From positions 1,922,001-1,986,000 of the forward strand of contig NZ_CP012996.1 of the NCBI RefSeq assembly GCF_001412655.1: a DNA stretch of 64,000 nucleotides, given 5' to 3'. This DNA comes from Pedobacter sp. PACM 27299 (lineage in GTDB: Bacteria; Bacteroidota; Bacteroidia; Sphingobacteriales; Sphingobacteriaceae). Position numbers and translations under genes: made by a program. Within the stretch, counting starts at the first letter, position 1. Every line of letters starts with the position of its first letter. The notes under the pieces were generated by a model, which was not told the origin of the DNA, did no database searches, and worked only from the letters and a program-made list of their open reading frames with translations. Below, piece by piece: positions 2,418-61,457 of the stretch.

Positions 2418-2515
2418 ATTCGTACTACTAGATTTAAATTACAGGACCCTGATCATAAAAGTACAGTGCAAATTTGAGCAACAAATAAAAATTTCAAAAT
2501 TATCAAAGCACTTTT

Positions 2516-4027: not shown

Positions 4028-4161
4028 GCGGAAGAGAATGAATGATCAAAGAAAACTTACACATAGTGAATTCGATGAGTAGTGTGAGTTTCCAAAACCA
4101 CTTACGGAATTGCTGGGCTACTGGATGAGAAACGGAGCATGTTTTGGATGCCTGTAAAATG

Positions 4162-4197
4162 AAAAAGGCTTGAAATCTTACGATTCCAGGCCTTTTT
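4162..4197. terminator. Terminator, probably the original one of the tRNA-Ser gene
   Basis: A near-perfect hairpin: AAAAAGGC is followed by a stem with one A/C mismatch, loop TTAC, and GGCCTTTTT. It resembles the hairpin at 28157-28192 in size and loop context (AAATC ... GATT). If the element at 4221-28228 were removed, this hairpin would lie just downstream of the tRNA-Ser 3' end, so it is probably that gene's ancestral terminator. Confidence 0.6.
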
Positions 4198-4220
4198 ATA
4201 TGGTTTTGATGACCATTTCA

Positions 4221-4236
4221 GCGGAGAGTGGGGGAT
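4221..4236. repeat. attL: 16-bp copy of the tRNA-Ser 3' end
   Basis: GCGGAGAGTGGGGGAT here is identical and in the same orientation to 28213-28228, which is the 3' end of the tRNA-Ser gene read on the + strand. Flanking bases differ on both sides. A direct repeat of a tRNA 3' end, with an integrase gene next to the intact tRNA, is the standard signature of site-specific integration. Confidence 0.75.
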
Positions 4237-4437
4237 CGGCCTAAACCAATTTTAAACACTCTTTAGCCCGTATTATATATCTTTTTTGTTTTGAGGGCAC
4301 CTAATTGGGGCACCATCAAAACAACACATATTCGCTATTCCTTGTTTATTCTAAAGTAGTAAAAAAAAAGCACATAATTAAATTTAATATTGCAATAAAT
4401 ATTATTGCAGAAACCAGAATTTGTTGGCCTATAGTAT

Positions 4438-45064: not shown

Positions 45065-46438
45065 TTAGATTGGATTCTGGCTGTAGGTGTTGTTGATGTC
45101 CAGTTCACGCTGAGGAATCAGGAAAAGCAATCTTGGTGTTTTTCCTTGTGCTTTCATCACTTCAGCAGCCTTACCAAAACGCAGTAAATCCGGCCATCTG
45201 TGGTTTTCAAAAGCAAGCTCTACTCGTCTTTCTTTGAGTAATTTCTCGGCGAAAGTACCTGGGGTACTGCTGTCAATTCTATTCAATCCGGCACGGAACC
45301 TCACTTCATAGATCAGGTCGTAGGCTTCGGTGCCTTCTCCCAAAGCTTCTGCCAGCATCAGCAAGGCATCTGCATAACGCAGTACCACGAAATTATAATC
45401 CGCATCACCTTCATTATAGGCAGTAGTCGTGCCATATTTAAGGATAAAACGTCCTGCATTTAATGGCCCGTTGATCGGGTTCATAGAGATGGCAAAACGT
45501 TTGTCGTTCGGCTCATAAGCAGCCTGCATTTCTGCGGTAGGTCTGTTTTTGTAAGCACCGGTGCTTTGGATCATTAAGGGAGAGAAAGCATTGGTAAAGG
45601 CATTTCCGGTATTGGTACCACCACCTTTGTACTGCACTTCAAAGATGGATTCTACATTGTTTTTATTGGCAATTCCCCAAAGCTTGTCGTAAGTAGGAAC
45701 TAGGGTGTAACCGTAAGTTTTAACCCTTCTCAATGGTGCAACAGCCGAAGCTTTATCGCCCATGGTCAGGTAAATTTTACCCATTAATGTGGCTGCGGCT
45801 CCTTTAGTTGCTCTGCCCACATTGATGCCGGTATATTTTACATCTAAGAAACCTTCGGCGGTGGCCAGGTCGGCAACTAACTGTTTATATACTTCGCTAG
45901 CTGGCAATTGAGGATAGGATTTACCTTCTTCTACGGTAATTTCTTTGAGTACCAATGGGATTCTTCCGAAGTTCAGGGCAAGGTTATAATAAAACAGGGA
46001 GCGTAGGAATAAAGCTTCTCCTTTCACTCTGTTTTTTAAGGCTGGATCCATTGGTACTTCTTCAATTCTGCTCAATACGATGTTACATCTGCTGATGCCT
46101 ACATAAGTATCCAGGTAGGAAGAGGTGACCAATTCGGCTGTTGCCGCATTTTCATTGAAGTTGTCAATGGCATTCAGGTCTGCACCCAATCCGGTATTAT
46201 CGGCACCGCCATCGGTATTATCGGAACGCATTTCGTTCAGGATCCAGTAACTTTGGTTGTAAGCACCGTTCATCTGCAGCGCTTTATAAGCTGCGTTTAC
46301 GGCGATCACCATATCGTCACTGGTTTTATAGAAGGCATTTACGTTACGCTGAGAAATCGGGTTCAGGTCGGTAAACTCTTTGCCACAAGAGCTGAGTATT
46401 CCGGCAGAGATCAGGATATATATTAATTTCTTTTTCAT
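45065..46438 (-). CDS. SusD/RagB family outer-membrane lipoprotein
   Basis: 457 residues. Lipoprotein signal with Cys in AGILSSCGKEFTDLNP (residue 18), typical SusD start (NPISQRNVNAFYKTSDDMVI), the tetratricopeptide-like helices (GEALFLRSLFYYNLALNFGR) and the C-terminal YADALLMLAEALGEG and ERRVELAFENHRWPDLLRFG signatures. SusD caps the SusC channel and binds glycan at the cell surface. It starts 27 bases after the susC stop; the two form a complex. Confidence 0.94.
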   Translation of the reverse strand: MKKKLIYILISAGILSSCGKEFTDLNPISQRNVNAFYKTSDDMVIAVNAAYKALQMNGAYNQSYWILNEMRSDNTDGGADNTGLGADLNAIDNFNENAATAELVTSSYLDTYVGISRCNIVLSRIEEVPMDPALKNRVKGEALFLRSLFYYNLALNFGRIPLVLKEITVEEGKSYPQLPASEVYKQLVADLATAEGFLDVKYTGINVGRATKGAAATLMGKIYLTMGDKASAVAPLRRVKTYGYTLVPTYDKLWGIANKNNVESIFEVQYKGGGTNTGNAFTNAFSPLMIQSTGAYKNRPTAEMQAAYEPNDKRFAISMNPINGPLNAGRFILKYGTTTAYNEGDADYNFVVLRYADALLMLAEALGEGTEAYDLIYEVRFRAGLNRIDSSTPGTFAEKLLKERRVELAFENHRWPDLLRFGKAAEVMKAQGKTPRLLFLIPQRELDINNTYSQNPI

Positions 46439-46465: not shown

Positions 46466-49400
46466 CTACTTAAATGAGGCATTAATACCAAAAGTGAAAT
46501 TTCTTGATAACGGATAGGCGCCATAATCTTCACCCTGTACACCGCTTGAAGTAGATTGATTATTTACCTCAGGGTTGTAGCCGATATAATCGGTTTTGGT
46601 GAATAGGTTGGTTCCAGAAGTATATACACGGAATGAAGAGAAATATTTCCCTACCCATTTGGCAGGTAGGGTATAGGCGATGGTTACATTTCTAAGGCGG
46701 ATGTAAGAGGCATCTTCTACCTGATAAGTGGAAGGTCTGTTGTTAAATCCGTGTAAATCGCCTAGCCGGTCTGCACGTGGTGTTTTACCATCTCCAGGTT
46801 GATCTGGGGAAAGCCATCTGTTTTTCAGCACGGAGTAAGAGTTGGTATTGGCTTCACCATTGGCCAGGTGTCTTCTGGTTAAGTTCAAGACTTGTGAACC
46901 TTCTACACCCTGGATCAGGAAGCTCAATTCTATGCCTTTATAGCCTAGTCTGTTGGTAATACCATAGGTGTAATCAGGCTGATAGTTGCCGATAACCGTA
47001 CGGTCGTTGGCATCAATAACGCCGTCACCATTTACATCTTTGAACATGAAATCTCCAGGTGCCGCTTTTGCTGCCAATTTATCTTTAGGGGCGCTGTTGA
47101 TCTCTGCCTGACTTTGGTAGATCCCTTCTACCACATAACCGTAATAGCTGCCGATTGGGTCGCCGATGCGGGTAATGTGACGGATACCAGCACCACCAGT
47201 GCTTAGAATTGGATCGCCGGAAGCGCCCAATTTCAATACTTTGTTTTTGTTGGTAGAGAAGTTCATATCGGTGCTCCAGGTGAAGCTGCCTACTAAATTC
47301 TGAGTAGAAAGGGAAGCTTCAAAACCTTTGTTTTCTACCTCACCGATGTTCATTAGCGGGTTAGAGTTCCCGTAACCTACTACTGCAGGCACTTGTACAT
47401 TCAGGAGCAGGTTAGAAGTTTTCTTATTGTACCAATCTAGGGATGCAAAGATCCTGTTGCTCAGGAAGCTCATGTCCAGACCGATATCTACCTGTGTATT
47501 TTTCTCCCAGGTCAGGTTTGGATTGCTTGGGGTAGAAGGGGCGATCCCGTTGGTCACGACATTGCCAAATACATAATTATATGGGCTCAATAGTCCTACA
47601 GCGGCATAGTTTGGGATCAGGAAGTTTCCTGTTTTACCCCAGCTTCCGCGCAGTTTAAAGTCGCTGATCCATTTGATATTTTTCATGAATGCTTCATCAG
47701 ACATTCTCCATCCGGCAGAGAAGGAAGGGAAATAACCGACTTTATTGCCCTCACCAAAACGGGAAGCACGGTCAGAACGGATGGTCGCGGTCAATAGGTA
47801 ACGGTCCATAAACGCATAGTTTACCCTACCCAGGTAGGATACCAGCGACCATTCTTCTTCGGTTGCGGTACCACCGGTAACTTGTCCGCCGCTCACGGTT
47901 TGTACTAAATCGTCAGGGAAGTTTTCTGCTTGTACCTGATTGTTTCTGATCTTGTCTTTCTGTGCGGTATATCCGGCAAGTGCAGAGATGCTGTGTACCC
48001 CAAATACCTTGTTGTAAGTTAGGAGGTTTTCTGAAAGCCAGTTGGTTTCCAGTGAAGAGTTAGACTGTCCATAAGGCACACCTACAGTTGCTGCACGGTC
48101 GATAAATGCCTTTTCTCTGTAATATTTTCTATTGTAGTTGTTAATGTCTGTACCGATCATGAACTTGTATTTCAGACCATCCAGAAAGGTATATTCTGCA
48201 TAGGCGCTGGCAAAGCTTCTGAACTGCGAAAGGTCGTCATGGATGTATTTTACTACCGCCAGCGGGTTACTGGAAGCGGTCATATTGGTACCGGTTCCAT
48301 TTTCTGTGTTCAGGTGACTCTGGTTATTGCTTTGGTTAATCGTACCATTTGGCAGGTAAGGGCTTACTGTTGGCGAATGTACCAGGGCGGTGTAAACTGC
48401 TCCTGGAGGATCTGCGAAATAAGGGGCACTGGTAGATCCTTTGGCCTGATCTGTAAATGAAGGATTCACAATGGCACCGATACGCAGGTTTTTAACCGGA
48501 TCAGATTCGATGTTGATGCGGAAGGTATAACGTTTAAATCCGGTTTTATCGATGATACCACCTTGATTGAAATAGTTACCAGAGATGTAATAGCCTAGTT
48601 TTTCTGCTCCACCAGAAAGGGATAGGTTATAGGACTGGATGTTGGAATTTTTGAACAGCACATCCTGCCAGTCGGTGTCTACACCTGTTGGATTGATAAA
48701 ATCATTAGGCAGGTAATAACTGGTATTGGTACTTCTGGTGTAACGTACTGAATTGGGGTCGTTGATGCTGGCATTCGGGAAATCCTGCAGGTAGGCATTG
48801 TTCTTCGCGTTCAGCACATACTCGCTGAGCTCTTTTGAGTTCATCAGGTCTACCTTGTTGGCCAGGGTTTGGATGCCATAATAGGAGTCGAAATTGACTG
48901 AAGTAGTACCGTCTCTTTTTCCTTTTTTAGTGGTGATGATGATGACTCCGTTTGAACCTCTGGAACCATAAATGGCGGCAGCGGCAGCGTCTTTTAAGAC
49001 CTCTACGGATTGAATATCTCCCGGGCTGATGGTTCCCAGCGGGTTTGCCGGAGCGGGGCGGAAGGCTACCGTTCTTTTAGAAACATCGCCCTGAGTGGCA
49101 GATTCTACGTTTTTAGAGATGGGGAAACCATCTACTACATATAAGGGTTCGTTACCAGCGGAGATAGAACCGACACCACGCACACGAATGGTGGTTGCGG
49201 CACCTGGTTCGCCACTTGGCTCTTGTACCTGTACCCCTGCGATCTGGCCTTGAATGGCATTCTCGAAGCTGGTTACCGGAATATCCTTGATGCTTTTTGC
49301 ACTGATAGAAGCAATAGAACCAGTTAAGTTTCTTTTTTGCTGTGTACCGTATCCCACACCTACTACTACAATTTCATCTAGTTTCTGCTGGTCAGGCATT

Positions 49401-50062
49401 AAATCTACATTGATGACTGTAGAAGAACCGATGGCCACTTCCTTCGTGATGTAACTGATATAAGAGAATACAAGGATACCTTTTTCAGGAACTTTAATGG
49501 TGTATTTTCCGTTGGAATTGGTGCTGGTGGTAATGTTTTTCCCTTTCAATTTAATGGAAACGCCAGGCAGTATCTCCCCATTGCTGCCATCGGCCACTTT
49601 ACCAGTGATGGTCAACTCTCTATAGACTTCGCTCAGGTTATTGGCGTTTTCTGCTGGTGTCGGTTCGGTACTGCCTTTTTCCTTTGGGCTGTTCTGACGG
49701 TGATCTGCAGAAGTTTTTGAATCTTTGAAATTGATCACATAAAACTGTTCGCTAATCTTTTTATAGTTAATATTTACCGGAGAAAGCATATTGGTCAATG
49801 CCGTTTCAATACTTTCATGTTGTGGTTTTTCTTTAGTTTGAACAAGTATATTCTCGGCCAGCTTGCTGTCGAACATAATGGATACTTTGTGTATTTTTTC
49901 GAGTCCTTTCAATGCATCTTTGAGGGGCATCAATTGACGCATGGCCTCTGAAGGCGTGGTGGTAGCACTTTCCGGCACAAATGCGAAGGACTGCACACGA
50001 CTAAATACCATCGATGCGCTACCGATCACGAGGATCAGCAGCAAGTGTAGAATTTTTACCAT
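46466..50062 (-). CDS. SusC/RagA TonB-dependent transporter with N-terminal signalling (STN) domain
   Basis: 1198 residues. Order: signal peptide (1-26), a secretin/TonB N-terminal domain (about 45-110, PLKDALKGLEKIHKVSIMFD), a carboxypeptidase-regulatory-like domain (about 150-230, LPGVSIKLKGKNITTSTNSN), plug (about 235-380, VVVGVGYGTQQKRNLTGSIA; IRVRGVGSISAGNEPLYVVD) and a beta-barrel ending FTFGINASFK. The STN domain marks transporters that signal to a FecR-type anti-sigma factor, and fecR is the gene just upstream (38 bases). With SusD it should import oligosaccharides using TonB energy. Confidence 0.94.
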   Translation of the reverse strand: MVKILHLLLILVIGSASMVFSRVQSFAFVPESATTTPSEAMRQLMPLKDALKGLEKIHKVSIMFDSKLAENILVQTKEKPQHESIETALTNMLSPVNINYKKISEQFYVINFKDSKTSADHRQNSPKEKGSTEPTPAENANNLSEVYRELTITGKVADGSNGEILPGVSIKLKGKNITTSTNSNGKYTIKVPEKGILVFSYISYITKEVAIGSSTVINVDLMPDQQKLDEIVVVGVGYGTQQKRNLTGSIASISAKSIKDIPVTSFENAIQGQIAGVQVQEPSGEPGAATTIRVRGVGSISAGNEPLYVVDGFPISKNVESATQGDVSKRTVAFRPAPANPLGTISPGDIQSVEVLKDAAAAAIYGSRGSNGVIIITTKKGKRDGTTSVNFDSYYGIQTLANKVDLMNSKELSEYVLNAKNNAYLQDFPNASINDPNSVRYTRSTNTSYYLPNDFINPTGVDTDWQDVLFKNSNIQSYNLSLSGGAEKLGYYISGNYFNQGGIIDKTGFKRYTFRINIESDPVKNLRIGAIVNPSFTDQAKGSTSAPYFADPPGAVYTALVHSPTVSPYLPNGTINQSNNQSHLNTENGTGTNMTASSNPLAVVKYIHDDLSQFRSFASAYAEYTFLDGLKYKFMIGTDINNYNRKYYREKAFIDRAATVGVPYGQSNSSLETNWLSENLLTYNKVFGVHSISALAGYTAQKDKIRNNQVQAENFPDDLVQTVSGGQVTGGTATEEEWSLVSYLGRVNYAFMDRYLLTATIRSDRASRFGEGNKVGYFPSFSAGWRMSDEAFMKNIKWISDFKLRGSWGKTGNFLIPNYAAVGLLSPYNYVFGNVVTNGIAPSTPSNPNLTWEKNTQVDIGLDMSFLSNRIFASLDWYNKKTSNLLLNVQVPAVVGYGNSNPLMNIGEVENKGFEASLSTQNLVGSFTWSTDMNFSTNKNKVLKLGASGDPILSTGGAGIRHITRIGDPIGSYYGYVVEGIYQSQAEINSAPKDKLAAKAAPGDFMFKDVNGDGVIDANDRTVIGNYQPDYTYGITNRLGYKGIELSFLIQGVEGSQVLNLTRRHLANGEANTNSYSVLKNRWLSPDQPGDGKTPRADRLGDLHGFNNRPSTYQVEDASYIRLRNVTIAYTLPAKWVGKYFSSFRVYTSGTNLFTKTDYIGYNPEVNNQSTSSGVQGEDYGAYPLSRNFTFGINASFK

Positions 50063-50100: not shown

Positions 50101-50952
50101 TCAGGGGGTATTCGTAACAATAAGCGTATCTCCTTTTTTAGTGAAATTGATATTAAATGTTTCTGATAATGCATGAATCAGGGAATTGATGTTGGTAGTT
50201 GGTGCAGATCCGGACAAGTTCATGTCCAGCATTTTAGGATCTTCCACCAGGATTTCCAGTCCATAGGTGTTGTGCAGGGTGTTGAGTACTTCTTTCAATG
50301 GTGTTTTATCGAACACCAGGCGGTCGGTTTTCCAGGACGAATAAATCGCTGGATCTACCATACGTTTGGTATAAGATTTTTCCTTGCTTTGGTACTCTAC
50401 GAGGTCGCCGGGCTTCATTTGAATGATATTGGTTTTGTGGTCCTGTCCCTCCATACGGAAGTCGATTTTTCCGGAATTCAGCACCACCCGGGTATCGTGG
50501 TTTCTGGCGCTGATGTTAAATTCAGTACCCAATACTTCAACTGATAGCTGGTCAGGCATTTTTACAAAAAACTTTTGATGGGAGCGTGTGTGTTTTACCG
50601 AGAAGTACGCTTCCCCATCTACCTTTACTTCCCGATCCCCATTGCCGGACCAGTTTTTACGATAGCTCAGCTGACTATTTCCATTCAAGGTCACGACAGA
50701 ACTGTCGGGAAGAACAACACGTAAGGTTTGTCCATACTTGGTGAGGTGATGGATTTCTGCGTTTTGTTCTTTCAAAAACCATACGCCGATGGTGGTCACC
50801 AGGATCAGCATTGCTGCAGCAGCGATGATCTGTTTATTGAACCAGGGCTTTAGTTTTCTTACCGGCGTTTCTTGATCGTCCAGCATGGGAGCTAGCTTTT
50901 CCCATGCTGCATCGATTCGTTCCAAGTCGTTTTTGAAGGTTTTTTTAGTCAT
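50101..50952 (-). CDS. FecR family anti-sigma factor
   Basis: 283 residues: a cytoplasmic N-terminus (residues 1-40, LERIDAAWEKLAPMLDD), one membrane helix (about 48-64, IIAAAAMLILVTTIGVWFL), a FecR periplasmic domain (YGQTLRVVLPDSSVVTLNGN, VDGEAYFSVKH, VEVLGTEFNISA) and the C-terminal DUF4974/STN-like domain (FDKTPLKEVLNTLHNTYGLE). It should hold or activate the sigma factor encoded at 56204-56758 according to the state of SusC. Unusually it is separated from that sigma gene by three metabolic genes. A promoter-like box lies 33 bases before its start. Confidence 0.92.
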   Translation of the reverse strand: MTKKTFKNDLERIDAAWEKLAPMLDDQETPVRKLKPWFNKQIIAAAAMLILVTTIGVWFLKEQNAEIHHLTKYGQTLRVVLPDSSVVTLNGNSQLSYRKNWSGNGDREVKVDGEAYFSVKHTRSHQKFFVKMPDQLSVEVLGTEFNISARNHDTRVVLNSGKIDFRMEGQDHKTNIIQMKPGDLVEYQSKEKSYTKRMVDPAIYSSWKTDRLVFDKTPLKEVLNTLHNTYGLEILVEDPKMLDMNLSGSAPTTNINSLIHALSETFNINFTKKGDTLIVTNTP

Positions 50953-50984: not shown

Positions 50985-51010
50985 AGACGCTGTGCTTTTG
51001 GTTTTGTACT
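50985..51010 (-). promoter_or_regulatory. Putative ECF-sigma promoter upstream of fecR-susCD
   Basis: On the - strand the site begins AGTACAAAAC and ends CGTCT; GTAC and CGTCT are 16 bases apart, the spacing of -35 and -10 boxes. It matches the site at 53780-53805 at 20 of 26 positions. Its edge is 33 bases before the fecR start, a fitting leader length. A CGTC-type -10 is common for ECF sigma factors. Confidence 0.55.
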
Positions 51011-51022
51011 GTATAATTGTGA

Positions 51023-53674
51023 TTATTTTTTTATTGACTTCTGCGGTTCTTCATTTCTTAACCAGTAGAGCAGGTATGGAACATTGTAAGCATGTGTCCA
51101 GCCGAATACCCGAAGGCCGTTTCTGACATCCCATTCTGCATATTCTTTTTCGGGATCCTGAGGGAAGTGGCTTACTTTTAACAGGGTTTCTGCGAGTTGT
51201 TTCTGTGTGGCATTATTGTCGAACTTAACATTGGTCTGGTCTGTTTTTAGTACTGCCGCACGTTCCAGTGCCCTGTTCAGGAAACTTTGATCTCGGGTGA
51301 ATTCATAACCGATCAGTAAGCTGTGGATAGAAGATAGGTAGGATTCCATAAAGTAGGCGATCGGCTCATTGTCTCTTACCGAACGGGCATGGGTAATGAG
51401 TGCCTGTTTTATTTTTTCATCGCGGGTGATCCGGTAATATTTGCTGAGCCCTTGTGAGGCATATACCTGAGAATAACCATAACGGTCTACCACCAGACTG
51501 CTATTTTGCTCAGTTCCGTTTTGCAGGTCTAACATGTGTTTGATGCGGTCTTTCAGATCGGTCAGGTAGATTTCATCTTTGGTGGCATCGTATACTTCGG
51601 TCATGTTCCATACGGATAGATATAGACGGCGTCCCATCAGGTCATGATCTCCCCAGATGCGTTTCACATAAGTATCTGCAGTTTGACGCGCGATTTCTAA
51701 ACCTCTGTGGTCTCCGGTCAAGTAGTAATCTGCGAGCCATCCCTGTACCCATACGTGTGCGCTCAGTACTGCCGACCAATGCTGATCGCCATGTCTTTTT
51801 CCGATGCCGAGGTAAGGAGTAGTGTTATCTGGTGCTTCTTTGCTTTGCAGGTAATCGAGAACAGGGTTGGTATCTCCATGGTATACTGGTTTTTTAGGCC
51901 AGTGAATATTGTCTACATCCATGGTATGTCTGCTCATCGCCTGTGCGGCATTGTAAAGTTTCGGATCTCCGGTTCTCATGAATTGCATCCATAACATATA
52001 GTCTTGTGCAGGTTCGTTGTTTGCCCACATTTCCCATTTATTGGCGATGTAGTAGTTTTTAAAGTCGCCATGCTCGAACATGCCATACCATGGTGCCCAG
52101 TTTTGGTTGAAAAGCATCCAGTCGAATTTATAGTCCATTCCACGCTCAAACTCAGAAAAGGTCGTGTTGTGAGGGGAGAAGGAACCGAAAACTTTCGATA
52201 CGGCATAGGCTTGCGGAGCGGCATGTGCTACTGGCGGATCCAGGAAATAATTCAATGATTTTTGAATGGAGGGGGTACTTACGCTGGCTTCATGGAAGTA
52301 ATAAACCAGTTCGCTGGTTTTAGCCAGTCCTTGTGCGAAATTCCCTAATATACCATCATCAGGAGCGTTAGTATCCCTTGCGAAGCTCATTGGCCCTGCT
52401 TGCGGCGACCATAAATAGGCGGTAGTGAGCTGCTGATCAGCGATGATATTCAGTTCTTTTGGGTATTCTTCAAAGAAGTGTTTGATGCCGATGGCAATGC
52501 CCCATTTTTTGTCGCTGATGTCCATCCAGCCACTGGCTTTGGCGGTTTTCAGCTGCTCCTTATTGTCGGTGGTTAGACTGGCAGAGAAGCCTTCCATTCT
52601 TTTGGTATTTGTGGATTCCGGCACCGGAGCTACTTTATTTGGTTTCGGCCCGGTTTGGAATAGTGAGGTTTTCTGTGTTCCATTTCCGGAGAATTCATAT
52701 ACTTTTTCTGCTGGGTTTTCCCACCATTTACCATCTTTATAACCTACTTTGTAGGAGATGGCACCGTTTAGTTTGTAATGGAGGGAGAAGCCTGTTCCTG
52801 CAATCTGGTCGTTTGGTTTAGACCAGCCTTTATCGCTGCTTTCTTCTTCCGAAAGTATGTCTTTACTTTGCGTAGCAATCCTGGCATGCTCTCCTTTTTT
52901 AATTTCATGCTGATCCGGGACGCCGGTGTAGACAAAGGTATGGAGTACTTTAACATAGGATTTTCCGGCATATACGTGGACTCTGAGCACGAATGGCGCA
53001 GGATTGTTGTCTTTTCTCTCATAGCGGTATTCTCCTTCAAGTCTGATGATGCCATGCAAAGAGCCGGAGCCTTTTTCGATGACGCTTCTGGTGATGATGG
53101 CTTTGGACTTGTCTATTCCTGCCTGATCTAAAAGATCGAGGAAGGAACCTCTGTCTTTCGCGCCTTCGGCGATGATGTCTGAGGCACTGAACCCGTTTTT
53201 ATCGGTATTCAGCTGTACCGTTTCAAAGAAACCTCCATTGTCTTTCTTGATTTTGAAGTTCAATGGGCCGGTGCTGACTTCCGTATAGCTGCCCATGGGC
53301 TGCACATTTCTGATCACTACACGATCGCCTTTAAAGGTTTCTCTTTTGACATCGCTGCCATATTCCAGGGTGTAATTGTCGTTGGCATCGGTAAAGAAAA
53401 ATACCCAGATCCATTTGATGCTGTTGTTAATGGGCATCCAGTTGTTGACTTCCGTGATTTGGGAAGGGATTTCCTTGCCTTGTTTATTGAGCAGTCGGAC
53501 ATGGTCCGGAGAATACAGGGCACCGATGGGAATGGGTATACCCATGGTAATGGGAGCACCTTCCTGGTGCTTTTCAACTTTTAGCGGAATTCGTTCTGCT
53601 GCAATTGCAGTGAATTGAACCAGGAGGAGCAAGGATAAGGTAAGGAAGGTTTGGCTTAGCTTTTTCATTGGCAT
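51023..53674 (-). CDS. PcRGLX/YetA-like protein (putative exo-rhamnogalacturonan lyase family)
   Basis: 883 residues with signal peptide (MKKLSQTFLTLSLLLLVQFT ... AIAA). The N-terminal RIFT-barrel region (IPLKVEKHQEGAPITMGIPI, PIGALYSPDHVRLLNKQGKE) and central beta-sandwich (WSPQAGPMSF) match the family that includes PcRGLX exo-rhamnogalacturonan lyase and YetA. The C-terminal half is an alpha/alpha barrel (QHWSAVLSAHVWVQGWLADY, YDATKDEIYLTDLKDRIKHM). The enzyme should act in the periplasm or at the surface on acidic oligosaccharides; activity on rhamnogalacturonan is not assured. It heads the part of the cluster that continues with fecR, 70 bases downstream, and has its own promoter-like box. 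Confidence 0.75.
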   Translation of the reverse strand: MPMKKLSQTFLTLSLLLLVQFTAIAAERIPLKVEKHQEGAPITMGIPIPIGALYSPDHVRLLNKQGKEIPSQITEVNNWMPINNSIKWIWVFFFTDANDNYTLEYGSDVKRETFKGDRVVIRNVQPMGSYTEVSTGPLNFKIKKDNGGFFETVQLNTDKNGFSASDIIAEGAKDRGSFLDLLDQAGIDKSKAIITRSVIEKGSGSLHGIIRLEGEYRYERKDNNPAPFVLRVHVYAGKSYVKVLHTFVYTGVPDQHEIKKGEHARIATQSKDILSEEESSDKGWSKPNDQIAGTGFSLHYKLNGAISYKVGYKDGKWWENPAEKVYEFSGNGTQKTSLFQTGPKPNKVAPVPESTNTKRMEGFSASLTTDNKEQLKTAKASGWMDISDKKWGIAIGIKHFFEEYPKELNIIADQQLTTAYLWSPQAGPMSFARDTNAPDDGILGNFAQGLAKTSELVYYFHEASVSTPSIQKSLNYFLDPPVAHAAPQAYAVSKVFGSFSPHNTTFSEFERGMDYKFDWMLFNQNWAPWYGMFEHGDFKNYYIANKWEMWANNEPAQDYMLWMQFMRTGDPKLYNAAQAMSRHTMDVDNIHWPKKPVYHGDTNPVLDYLQSKEAPDNTTPYLGIGKRHGDQHWSAVLSAHVWVQGWLADYYLTGDHRGLEIARQTADTYVKRIWGDHDLMGRRLYLSVWNMTEVYDATKDEIYLTDLKDRIKHMLDLQNGTEQNSSLVVDRYGYSQVYASQGLSKYYRITRDEKIKQALITHARSVRDNEPIAYFMESYLSSIHSLLIGYEFTRDQSFLNRALERAAVLKTDQTNVKFDNNATQKQLAETLLKVSHFPQDPEKEYAEWDVRNGLRVFGWTHAYNVPYLLYWLRNEEPQKSIKK

Positions 53675-54023
53675 ATTGGTTTTTATCGGTTTTAGGCTAT
53701 CCTAAGTTTATGGCATACGTTTTAAGTAATGGACAAGACTTAGGTTGGTGCTAGCTGTGGATAGGTTTGTTTCCTGATAAGACGGGGCGGTTTTGATTTT
53801 GTACTGCTTTTATTTGATTTTTCTTGCAGACCGGGATTTATGCCGGGGATAAGTTCGATGTTATGATCATCTGATTGAGCGGGATAAAATGTTATTATTT
53901 ATGGTGGTTATTCTATGGGGGGACTTACCTGCAGAGGCTTATTGAAAAGAGTGGAGATGATCAAAGCGGAGGGATTCCTTAAAAAGAACCCTTCGCTTTG
54001 GTATTCATAGAATGTTTTATTTT
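53675..54023. other. Intergenic region upstream of the PcRGLX-like gene
   Basis: 349 bases without a gene. It holds the promoter-like box at 53780-53805, which leaves a leader of about 100 bases. A stretch near 53965-54005 (AGCGGAGGGATTCC / AACCCTTCGCTTTG) could form the terminator of the ROK gene. Confidence 0.5.
53780..53805 (-). promoter_or_regulatory. Putative ECF-sigma promoter upstream of the PcRGLX-like gene
   Basis: The same 26-base pattern: begins AGTACAAAATCAAAACCG and ends CCCCGTCT on the - strand, with GTAC and CGTCT 16 bases apart. It is 106 bases upstream of the start codon. It differs from the site at 56149-56174 at only two positions. Confidence 0.6.
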
Positions 54024-54866
54024 CTAGTTAAAATATAATGCGGCAGCGCCGAGAATGGCAATGTTGTCTATTTCTGAAGGGGTAATCTGGATGTTTTTGA
54101 TCACTGGCTGATAAGGAAAGTCCTGTAATTCTGTCCATAAGGTAGCGCGGAAAAATGGGAATGCTTTGCTTACTGAACCGCCCATGACGATTATTTCCGG
54201 ATCTACGGCATAGAGAATGGTTTTTATGAGCAAGCTGAGGTGTTTTCCATATTCCTGGAAAATTTGTAATGCGGCAAGTTCTCCACTGGCTGCTCTTTTA
54301 TATACTTCCTCACCAGAGCTTTGGTGGAAATGGCTGAAGAAATTGCCGCTGCAGTAGAACTCGTAGTTGTGATCCAGGTAGGGGATCATTCCGAATTCAC
54401 CGGCACCGCAGTTGCGGCCTTCATAAAGTTTGCCCTCACAGATCAGGCCTGCGGCTACACCAGTACCGAGAATGAGACCGGTCAGGTTGTTTTTTTTCTT
54501 GCCCATGCCGTAATGCCATTCTCCGGCAGCGAAGCAATTGGCATCGTTGTTCATCAGGACGGGGATCTGGAAATGATTTTCCAGAATAGATTTCAGGGGC
54601 ACTGCTTTCCAGGAAGGGATGTTTTGTACATCGTAAACAATGCCTTCTTTGGTATCCAGGATACCCGGAACACCAATTCCAATGGCTTCTACTTTAGGGT
54701 TTATGACCTTGCTGATCGAGTCGATCACCTGTTTGATGACGATGGATTCATCGCTTTTGGATTGGATCCGATCGCTGTCGATTTTAGTTATTTCTTGTCC
54801 GCTTACCAATCCGGAGCGCACATTGGTGCCTCCAAGATCTACGCCAACCAGCATCTTATTGTTCAT
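54024..54866 (-). CDS. ROK family sugar kinase without the zinc motif
   Basis: 280 residues. VGVDLGGTNVRSGLV is the ATP-binding phosphate-1 motif, IGVGVPG-type IGIGVPGILD follows, NNDANCFAAGEW has the catalytic Asp, and LTGLILGTGVAAGLICEGKL the phosphate-2 motif. In most ROK proteins GEIGH and CxCGxxGCxE bind zinc. Here the first reads GEFGM and the second YEFYCSGNFF, so the zinc ligands are gone. It probably phosphorylates the monosaccharide brought in by the permease. Its start overlaps the permease stop by 11 bases, so they are translationally coupled. Confidence 0.87.
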   Translation of the reverse strand: MNNKMLVGVDLGGTNVRSGLVSGQEITKIDSDRIQSKSDESIVIKQVIDSISKVINPKVEAIGIGVPGILDTKEGIVYDVQNIPSWKAVPLKSILENHFQIPVLMNNDANCFAAGEWHYGMGKKKNNLTGLILGTGVAAGLICEGKLYEGRNCGAGEFGMIPYLDHNYEFYCSGNFFSHFHQSSGEEVYKRAASGELAALQIFQEYGKHLSLLIKTILYAVDPEIIVMGGSVSKAFPFFRATLWTELQDFPYQPVIKNIQITPSEIDNIAILGAAALYFN

Positions 54867-56124
54867 CAGTTAAGGTTTTCTTTTTTCTAAGGGTGATTGT
54901 TTCATTTTGTACCAGTGGTTTTGCCCAAAAGCCAAGGCTTAATATATAACCGAGCATCAGAAATATAAACACCATTCCGGTTTTTAGTGAGGTCATATCT
55001 CCAATCCAGCCGATAATCAATGGGAGGACTGCTCCGCCGCAAATTCCGGTGATGAGGATACCGGACAGGGCACCATGGTGCTTGTCCATAGAGTTGAGTG
55101 CCAGTGAAATGATGATTGACCACATGACCGAGGCAAAGAAGCCGATCATCGGGAAAGCCCAGATGGCGATTGCCGCAGAACCAAATAGTGCAAAGGCCAG
55201 ACTAAGGATTGCTGCTGCAGTAAATAATACCAGGACTTTTTTGCTGTCCATGAATTTCAGGAGCAATAAACCGAGCAAGGTACCGATGGTGAGCATACCC
55301 CAAAACCAGGATACGGCGGTTGCACCCCCGGTTTTTGGATCTATTTGATGGTAAGTATTTAGAAATTCCGACATCCAGTTGGCCACACCTTGTTCCAATC
55401 CTACGTAACAGAAAATAGCCAGGAAGTAAAGTCCAACTGTTGGATTTTTTAGGAGTGCGATATTGGTTTCCATTCCGCCCACCTTTTCATCTCCTTTCAG
55501 TTCTACTTTGGGGATTTTTATAAAAGCGATCACGATCACCATGAGAATAGAAACGATACCGAAGATCCAGTATAGAGAGATCCATGGTAGTGCTGCCGGC
55601 ACGATCGATTCAAAAAAAGCGATGATGGGACTGGAATCACCTTCGGGCTTTCCAATATTGAGTACGAGATAGGAGTAGACTAAAGGGCTTAAAAAAGAAG
55701 CGAGGCCAAAAAAGAATTGGGCTAGGACAGAGTTGAAAGCGAAGTGTTCTTCGCCTCCGGCCACGCGAAGCAATGGGTTGATGGCTACCTGCAGCATGGC
55801 CATACCTGCACCGATTAGGAAAAGGGAACACATGTAGCTGAAATAGCCCGGAGTAAACACAAAAAGCATGGCGCCTAAAAAGGAAATAAAGAAGGCCGCT
55901 GACATCACTTTTTTCTCTCCGTATTTTTCAACAAGGATTCCTGAAGGAATAGACATGACACCGTAAGCGATAAAAAAAGCAAAGGGGAGTAAGGCTACAG
56001 TAGTAAGGCTCAAAGAAAAGCTCCTGATGATATCAGGAACCAATGGTCCGATGATATTGGTTAAAAATGAGATGACAAAGAATGTCAGTAAAATGAGTCC
56101 TAGTACAAAGTAGTTTCTTTTCAT
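54856..56124 (-). CDS. MFS sugar permease (FucP/FHS type)
   Basis: 422 residues with 12 membrane helices. The opening (FFVISFLTNIIGPLVPDIIR) and the loop IPSGILVEKYGEKKVMSAAF are typical of fucose/glucose:H+ symporters of the FHS family; AGMAMLQVAINPLLRVAGGE contains the family's helix-4 signature. It lies in the inner membrane and imports monosaccharide for the overlapping ROK kinase gene. The start is 25 bases downstream of a promoter-like box. Confidence 0.9.
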   Translation of the reverse strand: MKRNYFVLGLILLTFFVISFLTNIIGPLVPDIIRSFSLSLTTVALLPFAFFIAYGVMSIPSGILVEKYGEKKVMSAAFFISFLGAMLFVFTPGYFSYMCSLFLIGAGMAMLQVAINPLLRVAGGEEHFAFNSVLAQFFFGLASFLSPLVYSYLVLNIGKPEGDSSPIIAFFESIVPAALPWISLYWIFGIVSILMVIVIAFIKIPKVELKGDEKVGGMETNIALLKNPTVGLYFLAIFCYVGLEQGVANWMSEFLNTYHQIDPKTGGATAVSWFWGMLTIGTLLGLLLLKFMDSKKVLVLFTAAAILSLAFALFGSAAIAIWAFPMIGFFASVMWSIIISLALNSMDKHHGALSGILITGICGGAVLPLIIGWIGDMTSLKTGMVFIFLMLGYILSLGFWAKPLVQNETITLRKKKTLTDEQ

Positions 56125-56148
56125 TGGTTCATCGGTTTATGAAGATAG

Positions 56149-56174
56149 AGACGGGGCGATGTTGATTTTGTACT
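56149..56174 (-). promoter_or_regulatory. Putative ECF-sigma promoter upstream of the permease gene
   Basis: Begins AGTACAAAATCAACATCG and ends CCCCGTCT on the - strand, GTAC and CGTCT 16 bases apart, 25 bases before the permease start. It sits in the 79-base gap between the sigma gene and the permease gene, so the permease-kinase pair can be transcribed separately from the sigma gene and under its control. Confidence 0.6.
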
Positions 56175-56203: not shown

Positions 56204-56758
56204 CTATCCAGACCTGGAAGCGATGTTTTTGCGGAGTATTTTTATGCCTTCATGCACGCAGTTGCGAATCGCCTGATATTTTATGGGAAGAATTTCTGCG
56301 ATTTGTTTATAGGAAAGGCCCTCAAAATAATGGAGCAGCATGACTTGCCGCTGTCTTTTTGTGAGGTGTTTTAATGCCTGATGTAAATGTTGGTTTACTG
56401 CTGTCTGATTCTGCTCCTGAATAATGGTTTCTTCAATACTGCTTTCTTCCTGCGGATGGTCTAACTCGGCAAGGTTAATCTCTCTTCTAGATTTTTTTAT
56501 CGCTTCAAATAATAGTCGGATATAGGCACGATAGAGGTAGCTTTTTACAGAACTGATGTCTCCCAGGTTTTCCCTGTTTTTCCAAAGTTTTAAGAACAGA
56601 TCCTGGAGACAATCTTCAGCAAGGTCGGTATCGGCAGAGGTTTTTACGCCGTACTTGTAAAGCAGCATGTAGTATTTGTAATAGATCGCTTTGAATGCGT
56701 CCTTATCGCCGGATTTGAAGCTGTCCCAAAGCTCCGATTCAGAAATTTTATCATGCAT
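56204..56758 (-). CDS. ECF sigma factor (Bacteroidota sigma-70 family)
   Basis: 184 residues. Region 2 contains DLAEDCLQDLFLKLWKNREN (-10 recognition and core binding) and region 4 contains LTKRQRQVMLLHYFEGLSYK and QIAEILPIKYQAIRNCVHEG (-35 helix-turn-helix). The size and the pattern fit the FecI-like group that works with FecR and STN-bearing SusC proteins. It is the first gene of the - strand cluster, but three metabolic genes separate it from fecR. Confidence 0.92.
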   Translation of the reverse strand: MHDKISESELWDSFKSGDKDAFKAIYYKYYMLLYKYGVKTSADTDLAEDCLQDLFLKLWKNRENLGDISSVKSYLYRAYIRLLFEAIKKSRREINLAELDHPQEESSIEETIIQEQNQTAVNQHLHQALKHLTKRQRQVMLLHYFEGLSYKQIAEILPIKYQAIRNCVHEGIKILRKNIASRSG

Positions 56759-57156
56759 ACCCCTATGTTTACAAGAATTGAACTAAACGAAAGAAATGTT
56801 AATGTATTAATAATATTTTGTAAGTTCATACAACATTTTGAAAATGAGGACTTAGGTTAGCCTTTGATAGTTAGTTGTTTATGGGGCTTTTTTTATAGGA
56901 TTATATCGTTTTAATGGTCTAAAACGATTAATTCAAATTATTTTCTATCGCTATATTTCAGTTGAAAAAATAATTAATTGTCATCTCTATTTTACTCGAA
57001 ATTGGAGTGTTTCCCCTTTGGTTTTTCCCGAAAATTAAGGATGTGGCCAGTAGAGGAGGAAGTGCAGGTTTGTTTTTTTTCTCCCCGTTCTTCATCAGGA
57101 TCCTAAGCTGATTTAGATTTGTTCAGTAGGTTTATTTTGTATATTTAAAGCGGAAA
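56759..57156. promoter_or_regulatory. Divergent control region between sigma factor and hybrid regulator
   Basis: No gene. An inverted repeat ATCGTTTTA / TAAAACGAT (56905-56913 and 56920-56928, 6-base spacer) lies near the middle and could be an operator for either side. The 26-base GTAC ... CGTCT site found elsewhere in the cluster is absent here, so the sigma gene does not seem to use its own promoter type. Confidence 0.45.
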
Positions 57157-60100
57157 ATGACTAAACTGACTCACCAAAATATACTGGCAAAACGAGTATT
57201 ACTGACCATCATACTCAATTGCTTTTTCTTACTTTCTTTCGCCCAATTGTCCTTTGATCATTTGTCGGTAACGAATGGATTATCTCAAAGTACAGTATTG
57301 TCGATTTGTAAAGACAGCAGGGGATACCTATGGTTTGGTACCCGGGATTGTCTGAACCGTTACGATGGCAGAGGGGTTAAAATTTACCGCAGCAATCCTG
57401 ATGATCCTGCCAGTATTAGCTCGGAGGATTATATCTATGCCTTATTATCAGATAAAAAGCAAAACCTGTGGATCGGTACTCAAAACGGATTAAACAGGTA
57501 CATTCCAGAAAAAGATGCCTTTGAGCGCATTCCTTTTGATCCTAAAAATCCGAATAGCATTAGTGATAAAATTATACTTTCCATGCTTGCGGATCGTAAA
57601 GGCCGGGTATGGTTTGGTACAAATACCGGTTTGAGTATGCTGGAAGATCCTGCCTCCAGGAAGTTTAAGAAGTTTTACCAGAAAGATGGGCTGGCAGGAA
57701 ATTCTGTCTATACTGTTTTTGAGGACAGAAAGGGGGATATTTGGATAGGGACTACAGAAGGGCTTAGCAGAATGAGCTGGGAAAAGGGCAGGTATGTGTT
57801 TACAAATTTCCGTCATCACCCAGCCTCGCCCCAAAGCATCAGTGGGAATTTTATCAGAACCATTGCTCAGGATCAGCTGGGTAGAATCTGGATAGGAACT
57901 GATGCGGATGGCTTGAACTTGTTTGTTCCGGAAACACAGTCTTTTATCCGTTTTAAATACCAGGCAGGCAATCCTTATGGGATCAGCAATAACATCATCC
58001 GTAAAATCAGCGTCAACAAAAATGGAGATTTATGGGTAGCAACGATGAACGGGCTCAATATTATAGACCCGCATACGCTACGCTTTACCAATTATAAACA
58101 TGATGCCGATCAGCGCAAAAGTTTAAGCGACAACTCCATTAAAGAGATTTATGAGGACAATCAGGGTTCTGTATGGATAGGTACCATGTTTGGCGGTGTC
58201 AATGTAACGCATAGCAATACCATTCCTTTTGACGTTTATAAATACAATAAGTATCGTAACAGTATCAGCAGTGATATCATTAGTGTGATTGCAGGAGATG
58301 AAAAACAGCACCTCTGGATTGGAACGGAGGGCCAGGGACTGAATTATTTCAATACTCAGACCGGTGTATTTAAGAAGTACCAGAATGATCCGGCAGACCC
58401 GGGAAGTTTAAGCAACAATACCATAAAGGCGATATTTAAAGATAGTAAGAATCGCATTTGGATAGGGCTTTTTCAAGGTGGATTGGAGCTTTTTAATCCG
58501 GCTACAGGTAAGTTTAAACATTATCGCCATGATCCCGCTAATCCTAATTCATTGAGTTATGGTTATGTGAGCAGCATTACGGAAAATCCGGATGGACATT
58601 TATTGGTGGGTACCTCCTCAAAAGGATTGAATGTGTTTGATCCCGAGCAGGAAAGATTTACACTGATCAATGAGCTGCCAAGTTCGGGACTTCGACTGAG
58701 TAGTGGTTACATTCGTTTTGCCTATACCGACTCTAAGAAAAACCTTTGGGTAGGTACGCCAAGAGGTCTTAACCTGTTAAATTATAAGCATTCAGCTTTT
58801 AAGTATTTTTTCAAAAGCAAGGACAAAGACAGCTTAAAATCCAACCAGATCAATTGTGTAAAAGAAGACCAGCAGCATAACATCTGGGTAGGTTCCTTAA
58901 GGGGTGGATTGAGCCTTTATCATCCTAAAACCAATACTTTTACCACCTATACCAAGGAGGATGGTTTGGCTAGCGACAATATCATTGATATTTTGGAAGA
59001 CAATGAGGGGAATTTATGGCTGAGTACCGACCGTGGCCTGACCAAATTTGATAAAGCAAGGAAGTCTTTTAAAAATTATAACATTAGCGATGGACTGCCA
59101 GCCAATGAATTCAATGTGAATTCTGCTTATAAGGATGAACATGGAAAACTGTATTTCGGAAGCTATAATGGCCTGGTGGCATTTACTCCCAGAGATATCA
59201 AAGAAAATACGACCGTCCCAAAAATCGTGTTTTCCGGCTTAAAGTTATTCAATAAACCCGTTGCTATTGACGGTCCCGATCAATTACTGAAAGCGGACAT
59301 CAGCTTTACCAGGGAGATTACCTTTTCTGCAGGACAAAATATTTTTACCATAGATTTCCTGGCGCTGAATTATATCCAGCCTCAGCGGAATCAATATGCC
59401 TATAAACTGGAAGGATTTGAAAAGGACTGGAACTACGTGAATATACCTTCTGCAACTTACACCAACTTGCCGGCAGGAAAATACAGGTTTTTAGTCAAAG
59501 GGAGCAATAATGACGGCCTTTGGAATGAAGTTCCGGCAAGTATGGAAATTCGTATTTTACCGCCATTATGGCAAACCTGGTGGGCTTACCTGGGTTATGC
59601 GATTGCAGCAGCAGCCTTGCTTTATTTTGTGCTGCGCTTTACCCGCAGACAGCAAAGGTTAGAATCCGAGTTGTATTATGAGCAGCTGAATAATGAAAGG
59701 CAGGAAGAGCTGTACCAGATGAAGCTGGATTTCTTTACCCGTATCTCTCATGAAATCCGTACGCCGCTAACCCTCATTTTTGCGCCGCTTCAAAAACTGC
59801 TCAAGCTGACCACAGAAAATCATACCGTTCATCAGCCATTGCTGGGTGTAAAGAAAAATACAGACAGACTGCTTCGGCTGATCAGCGAATTGCTGGACTT
59901 TAGAAAGATCGAAACTGGAAATACCAGACTTCAGGTTTCTTCCCATGAACTGGTTGCTTTTTGCCGCAGCATTTATGAAACCTACTCCCATCTGGCTGAG
60001 CTTAAAAACATCGACTATAGTTTCAGCAGCAATGTGTCCGAAGTTCAACTTTATTTTGACGCTGGTCAGCTAGAAAAGGTGTTTTATAATATTCTTTCCA

Positions 60101-61341
60101 ATGCCTTTAAATATACTCCTGATGGGGGTGAAATTAGTTTTTCCATCAATCTGGATAAGGATCAGGTAAAGGTGGTTATCGCGGATACGGGAGTTGGGAT
60201 ACCTGCTGAATTGCAGGATAAAATCTTCGGTAATTTTTACCAGGTAAAATCTAAAAATATTGCTGCGGAAGGCTGGGGAATCGGTCTGGCCCTGGTTAAA
60301 AATATTGTTGAACTGCATAAAGGCGAAATTTCAGTTTCCAGTACAGCTGCGGTGGAAGGGAAAGATGGAGGAACCGTGCTGACGGTAGGCTTATGGTTAG
60401 GGAAATCACATTTCAAGGAAGAAGAAATCAGCGATCTGGAGCCCTTGGCAAAAACGATGTCTGAACCGCAGGAATCAGTAGGAGTGCTAACTGAATCAGC
60501 AGCAGCGGGCACTGGATCAGAAGAAGAGCCAACCGGATCAGCGGATCAATTGGCTGCGGAAACAGCGCTTCAAGCTGAGGAAAAGAAGTACAGCATTCTG
60601 GTAGTCGAAGACAATGATGAATTGAGGGGATTTATTGTGCAGTCGCTGCAGTCCCTTTATCATATTTTAGAAGCAGTGAATGGAGTGGAAGGATGGGAGA
60701 TGGCCACTACGCATCTTCCCGATCTGATCATTAGTGATGTGACCATGCCGGAAATGAATGGCCTCGAACTTTGTCAGCGGTTAAAAAAAGAAGAGCGGAC
60801 GAATCACATTCCGGTGATCATGCTCACAGCTATGGCCTCGGAGCTGCATCTGGTAAATGGTCTTGAGGCAGGAGCAAATGTTTACATGACCAAACCTTTT
60901 AGTATACAGGTTCTGGAATTGAGTATCCGAAATATTTTACAGGGACGGGAGGAGTTAAAGCAGAAATACCTGCGTCAGTTAATGCTGACCCCAAAACTAC
61001 CGGAAACGGAATCTCCTGAAGGAAAGTTTCTAAATAAGCTGATGCAGCTGATGGAAGAAAATATGGAAGATCCTGAATTCAATGTGGGCGGTTTGGTTGA
61101 ACATATTGGAATGAGCCAGACGGTACTTTATAAAAAGATCAAGGCCATCACGGGTTTATCGATCACTGATTTCATCAAATCCCAGCGGCTAAAAAGAGCC
61201 GCCCAATTATTGTCGGAGGGCAAACTGAATGTTTCTGAAGTGGCTTATGCGGTTGGTTTTAATGACCGGAAGTATTTCAGTAAGGAGTTTCGTAAGCAAT
61301 TTGGACTGGCTCCATCAGACTATGTTCAAAAAACAGATTAG
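57157..61341 (+). CDS. Hybrid two-component system regulator (HTCS)
   Basis: 1394 residues, sensor and response regulator in one chain. Signal peptide to about residue 29; two seven-bladed propellers of reg_prop repeats (about 30-700, repeated LWIGT / VWFGTNTGL blades); Y_Y_Y domain (about 720-785, NQYAYKLEGFEKDWNYVNIP); membrane helix (about 808-830, WWAYLGYAIAAAALLYFVLR). In the cytoplasm: HisKA with His865 (ISHEIRTPL), HATPase (NAFKYTPDGGEISFS, VGIPAELQDKIFGNFYQ, GWGIGLALVKN), receiver with Asp1194 (IISDVTMPEMNG), and AraC-type DNA binding (VGGLVEHIGMSQTVLYKKIK, VSEVAYAVGFNDRKYFSKEF). HTCS proteins sense a glycan fragment in the periplasm and switch on the linked genes. Confidence 0.95.
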   Translation: MTKLTHQNILAKRVLLTIILNCFFLLSFAQLSFDHLSVTNGLSQSTVLSICKDSRGYLWFGTRDCLNRYDGRGVKIYRSNPDDPASISSEDYIYALLSDKKQNLWIGTQNGLNRYIPEKDAFERIPFDPKNPNSISDKIILSMLADRKGRVWFGTNTGLSMLEDPASRKFKKFYQKDGLAGNSVYTVFEDRKGDIWIGTTEGLSRMSWEKGRYVFTNFRHHPASPQSISGNFIRTIAQDQLGRIWIGTDADGLNLFVPETQSFIRFKYQAGNPYGISNNIIRKISVNKNGDLWVATMNGLNIIDPHTLRFTNYKHDADQRKSLSDNSIKEIYEDNQGSVWIGTMFGGVNVTHSNTIPFDVYKYNKYRNSISSDIISVIAGDEKQHLWIGTEGQGLNYFNTQTGVFKKYQNDPADPGSLSNNTIKAIFKDSKNRIWIGLFQGGLELFNPATGKFKHYRHDPANPNSLSYGYVSSITENPDGHLLVGTSSKGLNVFDPEQERFTLINELPSSGLRLSSGYIRFAYTDSKKNLWVGTPRGLNLLNYKHSAFKYFFKSKDKDSLKSNQINCVKEDQQHNIWVGSLRGGLSLYHPKTNTFTTYTKEDGLASDNIIDILEDNEGNLWLSTDRGLTKFDKARKSFKNYNISDGLPANEFNVNSAYKDEHGKLYFGSYNGLVAFTPRDIKENTTVPKIVFSGLKLFNKPVAIDGPDQLLKADISFTREITFSAGQNIFTIDFLALNYIQPQRNQYAYKLEGFEKDWNYVNIPSATYTNLPAGKYRFLVKGSNNDGLWNEVPASMEIRILPPLWQTWWAYLGYAIAAAALLYFVLRFTRRQQRLESELYYEQLNNERQEELYQMKLDFFTRISHEIRTPLTLIFAPLQKLLKLTTENHTVHQPLLGVKKNTDRLLRLISELLDFRKIETGNTRLQVSSHELVAFCRSIYETYSHLAELKNIDYSFSSNVSEVQLYFDAGQLEKVFYNILSNAFKYTPDGGEISFSINLDKDQVKVVIADTGVGIPAELQDKIFGNFYQVKSKNIAAEGWGIGLALVKNIVELHKGEISVSSTAAVEGKDGGTVLTVGLWLGKSHFKEEEISDLEPLAKTMSEPQESVGVLTESAAAGTGSEEEPTGSADQLAAETALQAEEKKYSILVVEDNDELRGFIVQSLQSLYHILEAVNGVEGWEMATTHLPDLIISDVTMPEMNGLELCQRLKKEERTNHIPVIMLTAMASELHLVNGLEAGANVYMTKPFSIQVLELSIRNILQGREELKQKYLRQLMLTPKLPETESPEGKFLNKLMQLMEENMEDPEFNVGGLVEHIGMSQTVLYKKIKAITGLSITDFIKSQRLKRAAQLLSEGKLNVSEVAYAVGFNDRKYFSKEFRKQFGLAPSDYVQKTD

Positions 61342-61457
61342 TGCCCCCTTTTGAACTGATTTGTCGCCCTTATTTCCTGGATTAAAAACGAATATTTGAA
61401 TCCTGTAGGATCAATATTTAAATCCTATTGGAACCAAATATCCCTAAAAGACCAGGT

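Follow-up and report, generated by a model that had tools for sequence, protein, structure and literature searches.

Three matching sites in a Pedobacter polysaccharide utilisation locus as candidate promoters of its adjacent ECF sigma factor

The gene cluster and its three sites

We analysed a 64,000-nucleotide stretch of the genome of the soil bacterium Pedobacter sp. PACM 27299 (contig NZ_CP012996.1, positions 1,922,001 to 1,986,000; hereafter the window, in whose positions all coordinates are given). Its minus strand carries, in this order, a gene for an extracytoplasmic function (ECF) sigma factor, site 1, an MFS permease gene and a ROK kinase gene, site 2, a PcRGLX-like gene, site 3, and the genes for FecR, SusC, SusD, a PIG-L protein and an SDF symporter. 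The adjacency of susC and susD, with carbohydrate genes alongside, marks the cluster as a polysaccharide utilisation locus (PUL). This report concerns the three sites, which to judge from their sequence and conservation are very probably promoters of the adjacent FecI-like ECF sigma factor. The features needed here are as follows.

56204..56758, minus strand: ECF sigma factor of 184 amino acids, the proposed reader of the sites (Pfam Sigma70_r2 and Sigma70_r4_2); no site upstream
56149..56174, minus strand: site 1, proposed ECF promoter of the MFS-ROK unit; -35-like GTACAAAA at 56173-56166, -10-like CGTCT at 56153-56149, 24 bp to the MFS start
54856..56124, minus strand: MFS sugar permease; the nearest NCBIfam models, GluP and FucP, are both below cut-off
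54024..54866, minus strand: ROK-family sugar kinase (Pfam, NCBIfam); 11-bp overlap with the MFS gene
53780..53805, minus strand: site 2, proposed ECF promoter of the PcRGLX-like gene; GTACAAAA at 53804-53797, CGTCT at 53784-53780, 105 bp to the start
51023..53674, minus strand: PcRGLX-like protein of 883 amino acids (Pfam PcRGLX_2nd and PcRGLX_3rd; no NCBIfam family), probably a polysaccharide-acting enzyme
50985..51010, minus strand: site 3, proposed ECF promoter of fecR-susC-susD; GTACAAAA at 51009-51002, CGTCT at 50989-50985, 32 bp to fecR
50101..50952, minus strand: FecR-type anti-sigma/sigma regulator (FecR and FecR_C domains); three genes lie between it and the sigma gene
46466..50062, minus strand: SusC/RagA TonB-dependent transporter (TIGR04056) with a predicted N-terminal signalling domain at about residues 43-112 (predicted model, PDB matches)
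45065..46438, minus strand: SusD-like glycan-binding lipoprotein (Pfam)

A preliminary description of this DNA had reported three similar 26-bp sites, and reading the sequence bears out their coordinates, strand and similarity. Of the 26 positions, 2 distinguish site 1 from site 2 and 6 distinguish it from site 3, both as that description had it; sites 2 and 3 differ at 5 by hand count. The distances given to the MFS, PcRGLX-like and fecR starts (25, 106 and 33 bp) become 24, 105 and 32 bp through a counting difference only. Its suggestion that the sigma factor drives everything downstream of its own gene is better put as three units, MFS-ROK, PcRGLX and fecR-susC-susD.

The sites share the full pattern GTACAAAA-N12-CGTCT, which has 13 fixed bases and places GTAC 16 bp from CGTCT. 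There is no fourth copy in the window, as the description had also stated, the next best match having 11 of the 13 fixed bases; the bare form GTAC-N16-CGTCT has one extra occurrence in the window, at 17525. Exact matches to the full pattern in the 6,147,290-bp genome numbered three, namely the reported sites themselves, where 0.26 were expected from the base composition of 413 kb of this genome, window included. Allowing one mismatch added eight matches, one of them between the sigma and fecR genes of L223, a sibling system discussed below, and the reversed control pattern gave 14 matches at no more than one mismatch, one of them exact. With three mismatches the window held 11 matches against 6.3 expected, which is near chance, and patterns this loose were dropped for window and genome, where their counts were near or below control. 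Because the loose counts lie near control, the signal is the exact form, its clustering within 5.2 kb and its conservation.

A scan of the whole genome with a matrix was one of the checks that the preliminary description had proposed. A matrix made from 14 sites gave the three cluster sites 29.6-31.7 bits and the next best match 11.6 bits (150 of 3533 first-look candidates scored); since these three sites were in the training set and the candidates were scored in part, what matters is the gap between the scores and not the scores themselves. A search for a wider regulon with the matrix in six genomes found none, with non-cluster matches of at most 15.0 bits (150 candidates scored per genome, of 1876-4419).

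Conservation and distribution of the sites

A one-genome-per-species search yielded five further loci, with sigma factors 61-97% identical to that of the window, in Pedobacter polysacchareus (L095), Pedobacter sp. N36a (L096), P. caeni (L097), a Sphingobacteriaceae metagenome-assembled genome (L098) and Daejeonella oryzae (L099). The window's cluster, four in other genomes of the genus and that of D. oryzae make up six clusters with 18 corresponding gaps. The order sigma, MFS, ROK, PcRGLX, FecR is kept in all five orthologous loci. SusC comes next after FecR in L095-L098 within the fetched stretch, and in Daejeonella FecR is followed by an open reading frame (ORF) of 1199 amino acids.

This comparison of orthologous clusters, another check proposed in the preliminary description, found a site in 17 of the 18 gaps. 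Every gap of L095, L096 and L097 has an exact site, as do two of the three gaps of L098; the L099 gaps before MFS, PcRGLX and fecR hold GTACA-N15-CGTCT, GTACA-N15-TGTCT and GTACA-N15-TGTCT, respectively. The spacing GTAC-N16-[C/T]GTCT holds for all 17 sites, a distance fixed by the pattern itself (L098 is the one locus scanned for other distances). On the antisense strand none of the 18 gaps had the bare form, and GTAC-N17-GTCT arose in no more than 0.2% of 2000 dinucleotide shuffles of each gap. In L095-L098 the 13 fixed bases are the same as in the window sites, while identity drops as low as 33% in the 12-bp spacer and 43% in the flanks, both in L098. For L099 the identities to the window sites are 79% (fixed bases), 25% (spacer) and 46% (flanks). 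The fixed bases are thus conserved while their surroundings diverge, which is how a bipartite signal behaves.

The Daejeonella sites were found via the shorter form. Genome-wide, Daejeonella has three copies of AGTACA-N15-YGTCT, all of them in the cluster, and two of its reversed control; the count being so near the control, it is the placement and not the number that departs from chance. The third site stays with fecR despite the intervening genes, and the scanned stretches contain no further copy of the bare form. A weaker L099 candidate at 10578, which has two mismatches and falls within the last part of the sigma ORF, was set aside for the GTAC form at 10672. Between PcRGLX and fecR, Daejeonella (L226, L099) has a second PcRGLX-like gene, whose product shares 51% identity with the window protein, as well as a small PIG-L-like ORF.

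An ortholog of the sigma factor (identity of at least 61%) is present in 5 of 145 genomes of the genus, the remaining matches listed at E ≤1e-30 being paralogs with at most 38% identity, and a family-wide search of 399 genomes gave one ortholog outside the genus, that of Daejeonella. The five sigma-bearing genomes have 3, 3, 3, 4 and 2 exact sites, 15 altogether, of which 14 are in the cluster; the fourth exact P. caeni site lies inside a 176-amino-acid ORF and was set aside as chance. The 140 genomes lacking the ortholog hold 13 sites, one each in 13 genomes: five at one shared place between the same two ORFs, seven inside ORFs of at least 120 amino acids and one elsewhere. The shared match, GTACAAAATTACGAAATATTCGTCT, was seen in L124, L125, L126, L127 and L139, and is probably unrelated to the cluster sites. 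That the repeats arose by chance, or are copies of a mobile or duplicated segment, would suit the counts near or below control at three mismatches, but it is hardly credible when the exact matches lie in one 5.2-kb stretch and keep their positions in six clusters whose surroundings have diverged.

The comparison also bears on a second candidate reader, encoded beside the sigma gene:

57157..61341, plus strand: hybrid two-component regulator (HTCS; Pfam), divergent, rejected as reader of the sites

Regulators of this type are described as controlling many polysaccharide clusters (PMC11501099), and this one adjoins the sigma gene both here and in L095. We nevertheless regard it as very improbable that the HTCS reads the sites, which persist where it is degraded, distant or poorly matched: they are present in genome G128, where the HTCS is a remnant of 148 residues; in G064, where its ortholog (71% identity) is at a distance of about 500 kb; in G239, where the best match is 38% identical; and in G138 (83% complete), where those listed are only partial matches of about 30%. 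In L096, at 9145-9603, the HTCS gene is cut to an N-terminal ORF of 152 codons, next to an 814-amino-acid ORF.

Sibling sigma-FecR systems

The Pedobacter sp. PACM 27299 genome has 48 FecR loci; with the focal one set apart and five lacking an adjoining sigma gene, 42 sigma-fecR gaps were used. The form GTAC-N16-CGTCT at no more than one mismatch occurs in 3 of these 42 gaps (shuffle mean, 0.37) and in none on the other strand. L188 (GTAC, CGGCT) and L223 (GTAA, CGTCT) are conserved in P. caeni, and L214 is without a partner. A -35 element common to all siblings is not general, either by eye in 20 loci or by count in the 42 gaps.

From G064 and G128, 126 FecR loci were fetched, 114 of them with an adjoining sigma gene. 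Pairing the gaps of this genome with those of P. caeni by reciprocal best sigma factor gave 23 pairs, in which L197 and L207 are counted though they have no real gap. YGTCT is conserved in the sense direction in 7 of the 23 pairs and in the antisense direction in none. For the class [CT]GT[CA][CT] the count is 11 sense and 0 antisense, and is descriptive because the class was picked after viewing the alignments. Many sibling alignments show, by eye, a second conserved upstream block that differs from system to system.

The gaps of L178, L179, L180, L186, L187, L193 and L223 are conserved with their P. caeni partners; they have a YGTCT downstream block, and their upstream blocks differ. Judged by sequence, these are likely the private promoters of the sibling PUL sigma factors. 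No second copy of the sibling promoter was found in eight loci of 9.5-11 kb, the next best matches having 16-20 of 24-35 fixed bases. Since these eight candidate sibling promoters are single-copy, the focal cluster looks like a common arrangement in which the promoter has spread to three units. In one further sibling gap, aligned from four genomes (L174, L175, L176 and L177), L174 has GTAA, 16 bp and then CTAATAG, with similar blocks in the others; by eye, the geometry is that of the focal sites and the -10-like block is different.

A general statement would be that each Pedobacter PUL sigma factor has a private promoter, readable by comparative genomics, made of a -10 element [CT]GT[CA][CT] and a sigma-specific -35 element, and normally present once, between sigma gene and fecR, with three copies in the present cluster. 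We give this generalisation about equal weight for and against. If it is true, a genome with 48 FecR domains would contain dozens of largely insulated sigma channels, and their sigma-to-promoter code could be read in bulk.

The sigma factor as proposed reader of the sites

The sigma factor contains only regions 2 and 4 (Sigma70_r2 at residues 28-92, Sigma70_r4_2 at residues 125-172), which makes it an ECF (group IV) sigma factor; against NCBIfam TIGR02985 it scores 101 bits, below the cut-off of 126.4. The region 4 motif GLSYKQI.E..P.KYQAIRN is common to all six orthologs, though that of L098 is only 61% identical. Early work gives AAC in the -35 and CGT in the -10 as the hallmark of ECF promoters (as described in PMC8103513). 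The -10-like CGTCT agrees with this, and GTAC has TAC where the hallmark has AAC.

The anti-sigma candidate scored above the Pfam cut-offs for both FecR (55.6 bits) and FecR_C (51.5 bits), and FecR is in the same cluster in the five orthologous loci. The SusC transporter is predicted to carry an N-terminal signalling domain of the FecA/FpvA type. A model of its N-terminus, made from five sequences, has a mean predicted local distance difference test (pLDDT) score of 68.7, with 50 of 127 residues at 90 or above. Its best VIA matches were FpvA (10.3), PupA (9.9), FecA (9.3) and PupB (8.5), in a listing that also has the methylesterase BT1017 (9.4) and secretin N0 domains (up to 8.0). Foldseek returned nothing at E ≤0.001, and its top match was FecA (E 0.0029). 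The Pfam STN domain was not found in the transporter, and a sequence search of its N-terminus against solved structures gave two matches, both with E >1.

Taken together, the conservation of the fixed bases, the concentration of the sites with the sigma gene, the ECF-like geometry, the region 4 helix and the exclusion of the HTCS support the ECF-sigma regulon that the preliminary description had suggested. Several observations weigh against it. Most sibling gaps are without the GTAC form, and the surplus seen at one mismatch is gone when two are allowed (4 versus 3.8). The fecR gap of L098 has no recognisable site. Over the 145 genomes the reversed control gave 29 matches (hand count) and the pattern 28; the control never exceeded two per genome, and clustering alone sets the pattern apart. 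The PcRGLX ortholog occurs in the same 5 of 145 genomes as the sigma factor and the whole cluster co-occurs, so that co-occurrence supports the cluster as a unit and not the sigma factor alone. A matrix made from the other sites missed those of Daejeonella, its best match there being 11.5 bits and elsewhere in the genome; a weaker regulon member could therefore escape too. Other stretches of the sigma factor, including one in region 2, are as conserved as region 4. Finally, GTAC is palindromic, and could belong to an operator.

This last point leads to the possibility that a conventional transcription factor, a repressor or activator whose gene lies elsewhere, binds the sites as its operators and regulates the cluster, and that other sequences are the promoters. 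Operators, too, can be short, conserved and cluster-specific. The sites, however, look like promoters: their two blocks are dissimilar and stand at a constant distance, the spacer between them is free to vary, and the orientation is always the same. Here they also stand 24-105 bp ahead of gene starts. Sibling sigma-fecR gaps, moreover, have ECF-like -10 boxes at the corresponding place, and no shared upstream regulator was evident by eye in the ORF lists of L096-L099 (upstream in L099 is a 358-amino-acid ORF with a weak kinase match). We therefore consider operators unlikely, and take the sites as candidate promoters of the ECF sigma factor in what follows.

On this basis GTACA(AAA) would be a -35 element read by sigma region 4, and CGTCT, 16 bp from GTAC, a -10 element read by region 2. 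The sigma factor would be made from its own, different promoter and be kept inactive by FecR at the inner membrane. When SusC binds and imports glycan, its N-terminal signalling domain would touch periplasmic FecR and the sigma factor would be released. The freed sigma factor would then start transcription at MFS and ROK, for uptake and phosphorylation; at the PcRGLX-like enzyme, for breakdown; and at fecR-susC-susD, for more sensing and import. With fecR inside the proposed regulon and the sigma gene outside it, the loop would yield more anti-sigma and receptor and no extra sigma factor. That the sigma gene stands outside its own regulon, as the preliminary description had proposed, agrees with the absence of a site upstream of it in any of the six clusters. 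Within 400 bp ahead of the sigma gene, none of the six clusters has the housekeeping -7 box TAnnTTTG. By eye, a block around GAACTTACAAAATATTATTAATACATTAACATTTCTTTCG (56770-56840, minus strand), likewise upstream of that gene, is kept in L095, L096 and, in altered form, L097; it differs from the cluster motif and may control the sigma gene itself.

Systems of this kind are already known; what is new is a defined private promoter set with a predicted regulon. The E. coli FecI-FecR-FecA cell-surface signalling system, as described in PMC9249621, likewise has an ECF sigma factor whose gene is not autoregulated, a FecR regulator and a TonB-dependent transporter with an N-terminal signalling domain. 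It differs from the present cluster in that here the substrate is presumably a glycan, sigma gene and fecR are apart, a site precedes fecR, and there are three targets, whereas FecI is described as acting at the fecA promoter. HasI-HasS-HasR haem signalling has the same loop topology as proposed here: according to the account in PMC9249621, hasI is not autoregulated, and hasS goes up 40-fold when HasI is expressed in a fur mutant. It serves haem uptake, however, and has no polysaccharide genes.

In Bacteroides PUL systems (for example BT1877-BT1876-BT1875 of PUL24), as reported in PMC11501099 and PMC3878776, a SusC-like transporter is thought to signal via an anti-sigma factor to a cluster-borne ECF sigma factor; unlike here, the sections of the papers drawn on do not connect such a sigma factor with any promoter sequence. 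One of these papers (2013, PMC3878776) calls ECF promoter prediction a challenge requiring start-site data, and a 2020 paper, in the passages drawn on, states that of the ECF sigma factors of B. thetaiotaomicron none had a known motif, unlike B. fragilis EcfO. SigH-1 and SigW-1 of B. thetaiotaomicron are ECF sigma factors of the same phylum with proposed promoters, and SigW-1 drives part of a PUL. In contrast to the present case, those promoters are said to resemble a non-canonical -30/-10 motif, the SigW-1 motif was not significant, and SigW-1 is encoded away from the PUL (PMC12596196, in the portions drawn on). The Flavobacterium psychrophilum motif SM6 serves the type IX secretion system and other scattered genes, and not a private PUL regulon. 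Searches of an open-access library gave no published promoter of a PUL-type FecI/FecR sigma factor.

PUL sigma factors are many in Bacteroidota, and the papers drawn on describe their target promoters as difficult to predict or for the most part unknown, with some headway made recently in B. thetaiotaomicron. Here promoter, regulon and sigma factor can be named together from sequence, with a sharp prediction of three sites per genome. The comparison of sibling loci suggests that the approach scales, and the specificity of sigma factors for promoters in this phylum would become directly testable.

The remaining genes of the neighbourhood include a polysaccharide lyase family 8 gene (61428-63998, plus strand), which follows the HTCS gene and is preceded by none of the three sites. 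Two more genes continue the minus-strand array beyond susD:

42505..44997, minus strand: PIG-L family deacetylase with NPCBM-associated domain, next in the array
41125..42417, minus strand: SDF-family (sodium:dicarboxylate) symporter

The fecR-susC-susD unit possibly extends on to both of these genes. By eye, an ORF similar to the PIG-L gene comes next in Daejeonella as well, and an ORF similar to the SDF symporter gene follows it.
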